DNA of 26,135 bases from a virus: IMG/VR virus record IMGVR_UViG_3300006916_000325, positions 1 to 26,135 of that record; one strand, written 5' to 3'. The number at the start of each line of letters is the position of its first letter. The stretch's first letter is position 1. Under the pieces are notes generated by a model. The model was given only the letters and a program-made list of their open reading frames with translations, searched no databases and was not told where the DNA came from. Position numbers and translations under genes: made by a program. This document shows positions 2,163 to 7,004 of the stretch, piece after piece.

Positions 2163-2645
2163 ATGGAGATTTATCTCGGAAAAACAGTGATTTACAAGCC
2201 TGCTGGAGGCATGCAATATCGCAACATGGATCTGGTAGCTATCGTTACCCGCGTTTATGAAAACGGTCGTGTCAACTTGGCTATATTCGACCCTACCGGC
2301 AATATTATGCAAAACCCTCCAACTAACATTTCTGTTGATTTGTTAAGCGAGGTTGATTCAGAGCCTGTTTGTCAAAATTTATGCCACCCTATGCAACCAG
2401 AAAACCCTTTGCAAATACCAAAATTAAATGCTGACACGCCAACGGCAGTTATTCCCAATATACCTTTTGACAAATCAGAGTTACCGGCTGGAGCGAGAAT
2501 GGTTGAGCATCGACCTGCGACTCCAGAAGAAATTGAAGCTGCGAAAGCAGGGATTGGAGTATCTAACGTGAAAAGTCCTAAAAAACCCGTAAAGAAGCCT
2601 GTTAAGAAGCCTAAAAGCCCTCGCAGACCTAAATCGGGGTATTAA
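2163..2645 (+). CDS. Phage hypothetical protein with small beta domain and basic tail
   Basis: A 160-residue protein in two parts. Residues 1-65 (beginning MEIYLGKTVIYKPAGG and including AIVTRVYENGRVNLAIFDPTG) look like a small SH3-like beta barrel seen in many phage proteins of unknown function, where the pattern is G-x-V-x-Y, then AIVT-x-V, then VNL-x-x-FDP-x-G. The middle is Pro-rich and the C-terminus (about residues 138-160) is highly basic, with KKPV and KKPK repeats, which suggests nucleic acid or membrane contact. The ATG directly follows the TAG of the preceding gene; GGGAG eight bases upstream gives it its own ribosome site. Its TAA overlaps the next ATG (TAATG), so those two genes are probably translationally coupled. 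The precise role is unknown. Confidence 0.8.
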   Translation: MEIYLGKTVIYKPAGGMQYRNMDLVAIVTRVYENGRVNLAIFDPTGNIMQNPPTNISVDLLSEVDSEPVCQNLCHPMQPENPLQIPKLNADTPTAVIPNIPFDKSELPAGARMVEHRPATPEEIEAAKAGIGVSNVKSPKKPVKKPVKKPKSPRRPKSGY

Positions 2646-2968
2646 TGACTTCTGAATCTAAAGAAAAAAAAGCTGATGTTCGGGCAGCTATTGAATGGGC
2701 TTGGTTGAATTACGACGAATGTATAATTCGCGATGATCGCAATCTTTCGGTTGCTATTGATTTTGACAAGGCAACTAACGATCCTCCTGAGGGCGGCAAG
2801 CAGTTTCTTGACTTGGCTTTTACAAACAAAGTCGCTTTTTACAAGGATTTTGTAATGAAAGCACTAGGAACGGATATGGACGATGAAGACGAGATTGTCG
2901 TTAAAGAACGCAAATCTATTAAAGAATTGACTGATCTTTTAAGTCAATATCAGGAAAAAAGCGCATAA
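2645..2968 (+). CDS. Small acidic phage protein, possible terminase small subunit
   Basis: A 107-residue, mainly helical protein. The pattern in the centre, PPEGGKQFLDLAFTNKVAFY (residues 46-65), followed by a charged stretch and a C-terminal helix (ERKSIKELTDLLSQYQ), resembles small phage proteins annotated as terminase small subunits or associated packaging factors, in which a Pro-Gly turn precedes a helix with N-x3-FY. I see no clear helix-turn-helix motif, so this is only a suggestion. It is the last gene of the first operon, coupled to the previous one by TAATG, and lies about 2 kb before the large terminase gene. The intervening DNA contains the structured RNA and the two lipoprotein genes. 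If it is the small subunit, the packaging genes would flank the RNA. An ordinary hypothetical protein is equally possible. Confidence 0.75.
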   Translation: MTSESKEKKADVRAAIEWAWLNYDECIIRDDRNLSVAIDFDKATNDPPEGGKQFLDLAFTNKVAFYKDFVMKALGTDMDDEDEIVVKERKSIKELTDLLSQYQEKSA

Positions 2969-2973
2969 AAATA

Positions 2974-3023
2974 CCGCATCGGGCTGTGCTTGCAGTCGAA
3001 AGGATTAAACTGAACCGATGCGG
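2974..3023 (+). other. Structured element with 9-bp GC-rich stem after the first operon
   Basis: CCGCATCGG at 2974-2982 pairs perfectly with CCGATGCGG at 3015-3023. Inside the 32-nt loop a 4-bp stem can form (CAGT 2993-2996 with ACTG 3009-3012). It begins five bases after the TAA of the preceding gene. No T-run follows, so it is not a textbook intrinsic terminator; it might protect the 3' end of the operon mRNA, be a processing site, or be part of an untranslated structured RNA. Confidence 0.5.
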
Positions 3024-3036
3024 CAGAGAAACCGAA

Positions 3037-3050
3037 GTTTAATGTTTAAT
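3037..3050. repeat. Tandem GTTTAAT duplication
   Basis: GTTTAAT occurs twice head to tail (3037-3043 and 3044-3050). The surrounding AAGTTT (3035-3040) and AAACTT (3053-3058) can form a weak A/T hairpin. Function unknown. Confidence 0.5.
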
Positions 3051-3070
3051 AAAAACTTTGCAAGTCAAAT

Positions 3071-3094
3071 GTCCGTTTTTTTGTCCGTTTTTTT
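3071..3094 (+). repeat. Perfect 12-bp tandem repeat with T-tracts, upstream of promoter
   Basis: GTCCGTTTTTTT occurs twice in direct succession (3071-3082 and 3083-3094), ending two bases before the -35 box TTGACA. The 7-T tracts repeat every 12 bp, close to one helical turn, so they may bend the DNA or act as an UP-like element for the polymerase alpha subunit. The arrangement suggests deliberate enhancement of the promoter that follows. Confidence 0.7.
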
Positions 3095-3096
3095 AG

Positions 3097-3126
3097 TTGA
3101 CAGAGTTCTGTTCGTTTGGTTAAAAT
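3097..3126 (+). promoter_or_regulatory. Strong sigma70-type promoter driving the small RNA
   Basis: A perfect -35 hexamer TTGACA (3097-3102) is separated by 18 nt from TAAAAT (3121-3126), a five-of-six match to the -10 consensus. Seven-T tracts lie just upstream. The predicted start is near 3133, which places both hairpins and the terminator of the downstream RNA inside the transcript. This is the best promoter sequence I find in the window, and no good protein gene begins within the terminated transcript, which supports an RNA gene. Confidence 0.7.
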
Positions 3127-3132
3127 AGCCTG

Positions 3133-3239
3133 CTTACCAACTGTACCCTAGTTGATAAAGAAAGACGTTTGACGCTCTCTCTGCTAGTGAAGGGTACTCA
3201 CTAGAGCCACCGGAGAGGTCGTCAAACGTCTTTTTTTGT
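3133..3239 (+). ncRNA. Putative structured small RNA with two complementary 7-nt hairpin loops
   Basis: The predicted transcript is about 107 nt. Its elements in order are: hairpin H1, a 5-bp stem (CAACT 3138-3142 with AGTTG 3150-3154, extendable by 3 bp beyond a C-A mismatch) closing the loop GTACCCT (3143-3149); a 14-bp perfect helix (3161-3174 with 3220-3233); a short helix (CTCTC 3175-3179 with GAGAG 3213-3217); an asymmetric internal loop; and hairpin H2, a 7-bp stem (3184-3190 with 3198-3204) closing the loop AGGGTAC (3191-3197). The two 7-nt loops are exact reverse complements over their whole length. The transcript ends in seven T residues. No start codon with a ribosome site and sustained frame lies inside. 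Because H1 sits at the base of a roughly 27-bp rod and H2 at its tip, contact between molecules seems easier than within one. The phi29 packaging RNA is a known precedent for loop-loop multimers; homology to it is not claimed. Confidence 0.6.
3161..3239 (+). terminator. Intrinsic terminator formed by the 14-bp helix of the small RNA
   Basis: AAAGACGTTTGACG (3161-3174) pairs perfectly with 3220-3233, and the T-run at 3231-3237 completes a Rho-independent terminator. The stem encloses the whole H2 arm instead of a short loop, which is unusual and suggests that the helix has a structural role beyond termination. Confidence 0.75.
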
Positions 3240-3503
3240 GGCTTATTCTGATTGTTCTCAGTTGCCCAAACCAAATCCAAGGACATTCACGTAGCGTATC
3301 CGGCTCCAGTGGAAGGCATCGCGACCATCCCGTACCCAAAGAACTACGAAAAGCACCAACACCGAACAGGGGTCACGCCCGTTGGCTTTGCAAGGTTGCA
3401 TTTATTAGATAATGGAAATGCAGCGTCCCTTGGTGTAGCTTTTAGCTACACTCTCTCTTTAGGAGTCCTATGTTTTGATTTTGACGGTTGTCGGTTGTTT
3501 GAG
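3240..3503. other. Gene-poor stretch resembling a fragment of a dispersed repeat
   Basis: An open frame from a TTG at 3252 runs on past 3568 into the next gene, but its second half is hydrophobic, low-quality sequence in the A/T-rich promoter region, so I do not call it a gene. The first half (to about 3420) has higher G+C than its neighbours. All its frames give translations such as KHQHRTGVTPVGFARLH, which I associate with spurious reading frames over a dispersed repeat in some bacterial genomes; this is memory and is unverified. It may be a captured host fragment. Confidence 0.35.
3433..3451 (+). repeat. 8-bp perfect hairpin followed by a pyrimidine run
   Basis: GTGTAGCT (3433-3440) and AGCTACAC (3444-3451) flank TTT; opening the last pair gives a 7-bp stem with a 5-nt loop. 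TCTCTCTTTA follows. It could act as a weak terminator or be part of the repeat-like element around it. Confidence 0.5.
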
Positions 3504-3531
3504 TTGAAAATTTACATTTTTAATATACAAT
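3504..3531 (+). promoter_or_regulatory. Putative promoter of the lipoprotein and head gene operon
   Basis: TTGAAA (3504-3509) and TACAAT (3526-3531) are 16 nt apart in an A/T-rich stretch. A start near 3538 would give a short leader containing AGGA (3557-3560), seven bases before the ATG at 3568. Confidence 0.5.
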
Positions 3532-5000: not shown

Positions 5001-7004
5001 ATGAGTAAAAAGAAAAATCCATATTACGCTATGATCCCTAAGGATATTCAAGGGAATTTAGCGTGGCGAGCCAAATGGCGAACTGACGCAATGAAGGACA
5101 AAGGACTTCAGCGTGATTTTCGCCAAATGGCAATGGATGATGTTCTTTTCTTTTTTGGTGCTATGTGCTGGGCGTTTGAGCCTCGTTCGGCAATTAAGAT
5201 TTTGCCGTTCATACCATGGAAACACCAAGAAGAAGTAATGGTTGGGATGGACGAGTCGGTTGATAACGCTGAAAAGCTTTATGAAACTACGCAAACATGC
5301 CTTGACGTTGTTCTTGATAAAAGCCGTGGTCAAGGTGCTACTTGGATGTATTTGATGATTTGCTTGCGTCGCTGGCTTAGAGACGACATGTTTTCGGCTG
5401 GCCTTGTTACAAGAACGGAACGTCTTGTAGATTCGGATCGCGATCCTGATACGTTGATGTGGAAAATTATTTGGGCAATGAAATTGCTTCCAGCTTGGAT
5501 GATGCCGGAAGGGTTTATTTGGTCAAAACATCGAAACGTAACTGAACACTCGTTGCTTAACCCTCAAAACGGAGCTTCTATTGTTGGTTATGCTGCAACT
5601 GGAGATGTTGCTCGTGGTGGTCGTAAAACTCTGTTTTGCATCGACGAGATTGGCGGTAAAGAATTTATCACCGGCGGCAAAGACATTGAGGTTATGAACT
5701 CAACGCAACACGTAGCTAATTGTCGGTTTCTTGTTTCAACGTTTGGTGGAGACTCTGGGGCATTTTACGATGCAGCACAAGACGCAAAAAACGGAAACAG
5801 CGATGCTGTTTATTTAGTGTTGGATTGGAAAGATAATCCAATCCAAAATAGAAAACAATACATTTTAAAGCATGGCACAATTAGAGATGTAAATGCAAAA
5901 AAATATGGCGGCAAACTTACCGATAAAGAAAAAGCTTTAATAAAAAAACAACACGTAAAACTGGCTCGGCGAGGATATAAGTGTACCGACGTAATAAGAA
6001 ACACTTGGTACAACCATCAATGTTTGCGACCTGGAGCTACTCCAAGGGGTGTTGCTCAAGAACTTGATAGGAATCCTAAAGGTGCAGTTTCTAAAGTTAT
6101 TAGCTCTGAAATAATTAACAAAGCAAAAGCTGATTCTGCTAGACCACCAGATATAAAAGGTCGTTTGCTAGTAGACATGGAAACTGGTCAGCCAGTCGAA
6201 CCTTATTTTGTTGAAGACGAAGGCGGTGAACTTTCTCTTTGGTTTAAACCTGACTTAAACGGAAAACCTCCGTTTGGAGTTCATTCAGTAGGAATTGATA
6301 TTGGAGGTGGAACTGGAGGCAGCTACACGGCTAACTCGGTTTGTTGCGTTATTAATAAGATGACTGGTGAGCAAGTTGCTGAATGGTCTAGCAACCTTGC
6401 TGAACCAAGAAAGTTTGGAATTATTTCAGTTGCATTGTGTCGATGGTTTAATGATGCAGTTATGATTCCAGAAGCCAACTTTGGAGGTGGATTTTTAAAG
6501 GTAGTTGAAGACGAATTGTGTTATCCAAAATTGTGGCAAAGAGAAACTTCGGTTTATGGTCTTAAGAAACTGACCAAAAAAACTGGATTCTGGATGACCA
6601 ATGATGACACAAAGCTTGCTTTGTTTGAGGGAATGGTTGCTGCAATTGCAATGGGGACTTTTATTCCAAGATCCGAGGAGCTTTTGGAAGAATGCGGTCA
6701 ATATGAATGGAAAAACGGAAAAATTGTTCATGTTGGTTCAAGAAAAAGCGAAGACGAAGGTGCAAAAGGCAAGTCGCACTCTGACAGGGTGATAGCGGCT
6801 GCTTTGTCAGTTTACGAGATGGGGCAATCTGTTTCACACGACGAAACGCAAGAATTAATCGAAGAAAATGCCCCTGAAGGCTCTATGGCAAAGCGAATAC
6901 ATGAGTACGACAGAACAAGGAACATGGCTGGCGATCCTTGGGTAGAGGCAAATGTTGACATATTTGGTACAATAAATTCGGAGCATGTTGATACATGGTT
7001 GTAA
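5001..7004 (+). CDS. terL: Terminase large subunit (packaging ATPase and nuclease)
   Basis: A 667-residue protein that drives DNA into the prohead and cuts the concatemer. The ATPase domain has a Walker A-like loop KSRGQGAT (residues 107-114), the variant in which the lysine comes early, as in many phage terminases. Walker B is LFCIDE (211-216), with the catalytic Glu216. The LVSTFGG segment (about 244-250) fits the coupling motif position. The C-terminal RNase H-like nuclease domain begins near 425 and has the acidic set Asp433 (GIDIGGG), Glu491 (IPEANFGGG) and Asp595 (KSHSDRVIAAAL). The length is in the upper range for the family. The start is seven bases after the stop of the small lipoprotein gene. 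Portal follows after three bases, as is usual. Assignment is firm; the packaging type (cos, pac or terminal repeat) cannot be told from this sequence. Confidence 0.95.
   Translation: MSKKKNPYYAMIPKDIQGNLAWRAKWRTDAMKDKGLQRDFRQMAMDDVLFFFGAMCWAFEPRSAIKILPFIPWKHQEEVMVGMDESVDNAEKLYETTQTCLDVVLDKSRGQGATWMYLMICLRRWLRDDMFSAGLVTRTERLVDSDRDPDTLMWKIIWAMKLLPAWMMPEGFIWSKHRNVTEHSLLNPQNGASIVGYAATGDVARGGRKTLFCIDEIGGKEFITGGKDIEVMNSTQHVANCRFLVSTFGGDSGAFYDAAQDAKNGNSDAVYLVLDWKDNPIQNRKQYILKHGTIRDVNAKKYGGKLTDKEKALIKKQHVKLARRGYKCTDVIRNTWYNHQCLRPGATPRGVAQELDRNPKGAVSKVISSEIINKAKADSARPPDIKGRLLVDMETGQPVEPYFVEDEGGELSLWFKPDLNGKPPFGVHSVGIDIGGGTGGSYTANSVCCVINKMTGEQVAEWSSNLAEPRKFGIISVALCRWFNDAVMIPEANFGGGFLKVVEDELCYPKLWQRETSVYGLKKLTKKTGFWMTNDDTKLALFEGMVAAIAMGTFIPRSEELLEECGQYEWKNGKIVHVGSRKSEDEGAKGKSHSDRVIAAALSVYEMGQSVSHDETQELIEENAPEGSMAKRIHEYDRTRNMAGDPWVEANVDIFGTINSEHVDTWL

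Follow-up and report, generated by a model that had tools for sequence, protein, structure and literature searches.

Complementary loops in a small structured phage RNA: a possible promoter-proximal switch ahead of a second conserved RNA

Why would a short phage RNA carry two hairpin loops that are exact complements of each other? The question is raised by a locus in a viral genome fragment from IMG/VR (record IMGVR_UViG_3300006916_000325, positions 1 to 26,135; this whole 26,135-nucleotide stretch is referred to as the window), where a promoter is followed by a 5'-terminal hairpin, H1, and an intrinsic terminator whose apical hairpin, H2, presents the complement of the H1 loop (Table 1). A first-pass annotation made from the letters alone had proposed a multimeric RNA here, possibly a packaging RNA; its coordinates for the promoter, H1, H2, the 14-bp helix and the T-run all agree with the sequence.

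Table 1. Features of the locus and its surroundings in the window.
Feature	Position	Strand	Comment
Probable TerS-like small gene	2645..2968	+	homologues shortly before terL in L012, L030
Promoter, sigma70-like, TTGACA-18-TAAAAT	3097..3126	+	TTGACA 3097-3102, TAAAAT 3121-3126
H1, 5'-terminal hairpin CAACT[GTACCCT]AGTTG	3138..3154	+	5 bp, loop GUACCCU 3143-3149
A-rich linker / terminator A-tract	3155..3163	+	
Intrinsic terminator hairpin	3161..3237	+	14-bp lower helix 3161-3174/3220-3233
Terminator upper helix	3176-3183/3211-3218	+	T7 = 3231-3237
H2, apical hairpin of the terminator CTAGTGA[AGGGTAC]TCACTAG	3184..3204	+	loop AGGGUAC 3191-3197
One-sided 6-nt bulge AGCCAC, between H2 and terminator helix	3205..3210	+	hinge that would permit intramolecular docking
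Second conserved structured RNA (candidate)	3238..3450 (core 3278-3432)	+	covarying helices
Promoter-like site after second RNA, before next gene	3504..3531	+	L005 has one at matching place
Terminase large subunit, TerL	5001..7004	+	phrog_2

The two loops match in all seven positions (7/7), so that each is completely filled, and the two arms of the lower terminator helix pair perfectly. The element is predicted to fold at -51 kcal/mol, whereas shuffles average -26.5 (z = -6.5). Neighbouring hairpins whose loops are exactly complementary over 7 nt or more are found once in the window, here, and in 1 of 40 dinucleotide-shuffled windows; the chance level for the loops alone is about P = 0.03 per window, which is mildly improbable, and the stems, promoter and T-run are additional to it. 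As the loops alone reach only this level, the real support for a selected complementarity comes from relatives. The terminated RNA is predicted to be ~105 nt long in the window and ~97-110 nt in each lineage, and H1 starts within a few nucleotides of the predicted transcription start in most lineages. The first-pass annotation had also envisaged that CUAG next to each loop could extend the loop duplex, but this brings no gain over the loop match: the H1 CUAG (3148-3151) takes in the last two loop bases, and CUAG/CUAG pairing would therefore compete with the 7-bp loop pairing.

Two other features lie close to the promoter. Just upstream of it are two direct repeats, TGTCCGTTTTTTT (3068-3094), and many related short repeats occupy the matching place in a relative, L014; these are possible origin or regulatory iterons. 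The minus strand has, at 2965-3047, an intergenic hairpin (CCGCATCGG..CCGATGCGG) that is conserved and followed by a T-rich tail, and the loop of a flanking hairpin is complementary to its interior over 8 nt in the window and 6 nt in L014. We considered this hairpin as a second kissing-terminator and set it aside, since the corresponding H1 is not evident in L005 or L006 and would run into the promoter.

A TerL scan of IMG/VR yielded 15 loci, an alignment-based scan 26, and two more TerL queries a few more; relatives were few in the collections scanned. The TTGAC of the -35 box is retained in L004-L008, L030 and L012. The element is nearly identical in L004-L006, with both loops and H2 unchanged and one pair of the lower helix replaced (A-U to G-C). 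In L007 and L008, the element found at this position, flanked by a TTGAC promoter and the shared downstream block, is unrelated in sequence and has the same architecture: an H1 of UGUUC[GAGAGACGUAA]GAACA, an A-rich linker and a 15-bp terminator stem, whose interior, ACGUCUCUU, matches nine bases from the 5' end of the H1 loop (a 9-bp match). When these two genomes are compared, 36 of the 36 drawn pairs are standard in both. There are six substitutions within the structure: two make up a loop-loop compensatory pair (G-C to A-U), which is the covariation expected of a kissing RNA and is seen in this one genome pair, two further ones form a compensatory pair in the terminator stem (A-U to G-C), and another turns a G-U into an A-U in the loop helix.

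The more distant L030, whose TerL shows 51% identity, shares the layout of promoter, H1 and terminator, with TTGACG-17-AGGATA, an H1 of GUUGGGUG[CCACAUAC]CACCUAAC and a terminator of ~22 bp, in which the interior GUAUGU is complementary to ACAUAC (a 6-nt match). The layout is also present in L012, a weak member with a match of 5 nt only, and L014 has no such element on the plus strand. An architecture scan covered 1.16 Mb (summed over both strands) and 223 terminator-like hairpins; all scores of at least 44 fell in this TerL family, at one cassette. The loop code varies between phages (GUACCCU, GAGAGACGU, AAGAGACAU, CCACAUAC), and in the two longer records (41 and 49 kb) the coding strand holds a single copy of each 7-8-mer, whose sole complement is the partner loop. 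Among cultured phages, DNA matches to the element and its variants did not exceed chance level, and TerL matches reached only about 24-27% identity. The annotation's idea would have been undermined by relatives that kept the terminator and lost the complementarity; instead, L004-L008 and L030 retain both, with L012 a weak case (5 nt). The proposal of a small structured RNA is thereby strengthened: because relatives keep the pairing even with different letters, the loop complementarity is probably functional, and the comparison suggests that it is under selection.

Several further observations were made in the scanned contigs. L009 has a non-coding stretch of ~390 nt (60-450) that ends in a GGCCCGG..CCGGGCC-TTTT hairpin, lies upstream of that phage's terminase and has no Rfam match. 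In L030, the region 545-1070 after the terminator adjoins a serine integrase, and 3424-3500 (minus strand) matches the type II hammerhead ribozyme. L012 carries a tRNA-like gene with an odd anticodon at 539-609 (ARAGORN tRNA-???). A protein of 3993 aa in L077 (7737-19718) has a DUF6884 match only; it was checked as an N4-type virion RNA polymerase and no such match was found.

What lies behind the terminator bears on how the element might work. The ~250-nt block directly after the T-run is 87-95% identical in L004-L008, where most flanking DNA is about 75% identical, and it is still recognisable in L014; in all it is conserved in eight contigs, the window's own included. Indels in this block argue against a conserved protein. 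Among its 40 consensus pairs, 14 are changed on both sides, which exceeds all 500 column shuffles and all slid controls, with many of the changes coming from the single divergent row of L014. The folding energy is no better than that of shuffles, and it is therefore the covariation that carries the claim of a structured RNA. No Rfam family matches this second RNA (about 3238-3450), and a covariance model built for it (R1) matches only the window, L004-L008 and L014; extra loci from a pattern scan look like chance or coding matches and were discarded. A search of 289 genomes from the phylum of the one host-side TerL match found none, which shows little. The second RNA is possibly a new phage RNA family. 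Between 2900 and 3650 of the window, promoter-like sites on the plus strand start only at 3097 and 3504, with none between the T-run and the second RNA, and L014, which has no such element, carries a promoter-like site (1635-1663) immediately ahead of its second RNA. From this layout, the element is a possible conditional stop between a promoter and the second RNA.

The best explanation we can offer, which we put at somewhat short of an even chance, is a promoter-proximal RNA switch, or attenuator, with conditional read-through into the second RNA. The promoter would start a transcript with H1 at its 5' end, and the strong intrinsic terminator would form directly behind. During or after transcription, the H1 loop would pair, within the same molecule, with the terminator hairpin, either at its apical loop or in its interior. 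This contact would alter the outcome of termination: most transcripts would end as the ~105-nt RNA, and under some condition transcription would continue into the second RNA and perhaps into genes further on. At the level of sequence, the layout of the locus is that of an attenuator, in which a promoter and a short leader precede an intrinsic terminator and then a downstream unit, here the covarying second RNA; these parts, the covarying loop pairing and the placement between promoter and second RNA are all features of the sequence. We infer from them that the RNA would be produced, that its loops would touch within one molecule, and that this contact would control read-through in response to a sensed signal.

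Folding of growing transcripts is partly consistent with such a switch. Before the 3' arm of the terminator is made, the H1 strand is predicted to pair with the H2 segment in the window, L007, L008 and L030. Constrained folds indicate that in L007 and L008 the H1 strand and loop can form a 14-18-bp antiterminator, which is ahead of the partial terminator by about 8-11 kcal/mol (L007) and 5-9 kcal/mol (L008) when the transcript is 12-17 nt short of the end of the T-run. In the window and L030, however, the long-range alternative is only a brief intermediate, the terminator being ahead by about 10-16 kcal/mol with 13-14 nt left, and a common antiterminator form across members is therefore not supported. 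A switch, as suggested earlier, is still conceivable; its antiterminator form is not uniform among members. The total duplex energy between leader and interior (window, L005, L006, L030) is unexceptional against shuffles (174-410 of 1000), and only the loop-to-loop match is exceptional. Counting against an attenuator are also the opposite-strand genes that follow the L030 cassette, the 5-nt match of L012, and the compensatory loop change, which rests on one genome pair (L007/L008).

Geometry bears on whether the loops meet within or between molecules. The first-pass annotation had noted that contact within one molecule needs a sharp bend; a bend is indeed needed, and the one-sided 6-nt bulge is located at just that point. 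In a crude rigid-body A-form model, in which the bulge was allowed a length of 7 nt (window) or 6 nt (L005), 5-15% of the sterically allowed hinge poses let the linker close, and with the bulge removed almost no pose was allowed at all. Intramolecular docking is thus sterically feasible in this model through the bulge and hardly without it, which removes the main argument for multimers. By a nearest-neighbour estimate, a dimer would be favoured over two monomers by only about 4 kcal/mol.

Other explanations need to be weighed against the attenuator. The chief rival is that the element may instead encode an autonomous phage sRNA of ~105 nt, with its own promoter and terminator, that acts in trans on a host or phage target; the 5' hairpin would dock on the terminator to give a compact, nuclease-resistant fold, and the second RNA would be expressed separately or by leakage. 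This is possible, if on the whole unlikely. It would suit the placement of H1 so near the predicted start in most lineages and the total of about 97-110 nt in each, as well as the context in L030, where ~530 nt with no clear gene separate the cassette from opposite-strand genes, among them the serine integrase, so that the cassette is not a late-operon leader there. It fits less well with the lack of a promoter-like site between terminator and second RNA in the window and with the presence of one directly before the second RNA in L014. An ordinary strong terminator behind a promoter, with the complementarity as a by-product, is improbable: the modest chance level of the loops alone (about P = 0.03 per window) and the unremarkable duplex energies of the window and L030 against shuffles would allow it, but the exact 7/7 filling of both loops would not be expected, nor would the recurrence of the pairing at this locus in L007 and L008 with an unrelated sequence, and a compensatory change between these two. 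It is also decidedly improbable that the loops act between molecules, with the terminated RNA pairing in trans with its own nascent copies and so reporting phage dosage, as antisense attenuators or the P4 CI and P1 C4 immunity RNAs do. The fully paired seven-nucleotide loops do resemble those of ColE1 RNAI/RNAII, the loop code differs between phages as expected of a specificity code, and in the 41- and 49-kb records each single-copy 7-8-mer finds its only complement in the partner loop; yet effective concentration favours the intramolecular contact that the geometry permits, and no integrase or repressor was identified near window-type elements. A self-coded dosage sensor, in which the terminated leader, bearing both halves of the loop code, would swap intramolecular for intermolecular loop pairing with nascent copies and thereby set read-through into the second RNA as a new class of structured phage RNA, the code diversifying like a plasmid incompatibility code, is a long shot.

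Known regulatory RNAs share parts of this arrangement. The lambda pR'-tR' (6S RNA) late leader couples a strong promoter, a transcript of ~100-200 nt and an intrinsic terminator ahead of the late genes, as promoter-proximal attenuators do more generally; unlike it, our element has a 5'-terminal hairpin loop complementary to the terminator interior and a conserved non-coding RNA downstream, and no Q-like protein was identified. In L030 opposite-strand genes lie between the cassette and terL, and for this reason we rejected a lambda-like late-operon leader as a reading that covers all members. ColE1 RNAI/RNAII and antisense plasmid attenuators also have fully paired seven-nucleotide kissing loops whose code changes by compensatory steps, but here both loops are on one RNA and not on antisense partners. 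In the P4 CI and P1 C4 antisense immunity RNAs, termination is affected by short complementary segments of a single phage leader; at our locus no immunity locus was seen and the element has no Rfam match.

The proposal of a multimeric packaging RNA has fared worst and is highly improbable. The phi29 pRNA (RF00044) likewise has two complementary, covarying loops in one small phage RNA (PMC12670572), and in the window the element lies between the TerS-like gene and TerL. However, in phi29-type RNAs the loop pairing spans 3-4 nt and is arranged around a three-way junction (PMC12670572), whereas our element is a rod ending in an intrinsic terminator with a separate 5' hairpin and a pairing of 7 nt (7-9 nt among members). 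The window element does not match RF00044 at the gathering threshold or at E<=5, and Rfam at gathering and permissive thresholds gives only chance-level matches in and around it. The TerL found in the window, whose genome is incomplete, is of the usual large type (phrog_2) and is not itself a phi29-type ATPase, and the bulge permits an intramolecular contact. GOLLD and ROOL, which are phage-encoded structured RNAs with kissing loops (PMC12286853), are far larger than the element, which is not in a tRNA island; their Rfam models match nothing in the window or relatives. The link to packaging genes is itself loose: the element had been placed just upstream of them, and a probable TerS-like gene does lie directly upstream, but TerL begins 1.76 kb away, beyond the conserved non-coding RNA and two genes. 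The homologue of the TerS-like gene is directly before TerL in L012 and close before it in L030, and the cassette is about 4-5 kb from terS-terL in both (in L030 about 5 kb and many opposite-strand genes from TerL), so the packaging link is not conserved.

If the attenuator reading is true, the RNA-only control device of this uncultured phage group would be very compact, with a covarying loop contact tying the terminator hairpin to the 5' end of the transcript that carries it. The element also points to its immediate downstream neighbour, a covarying phage RNA without a family in Rfam.
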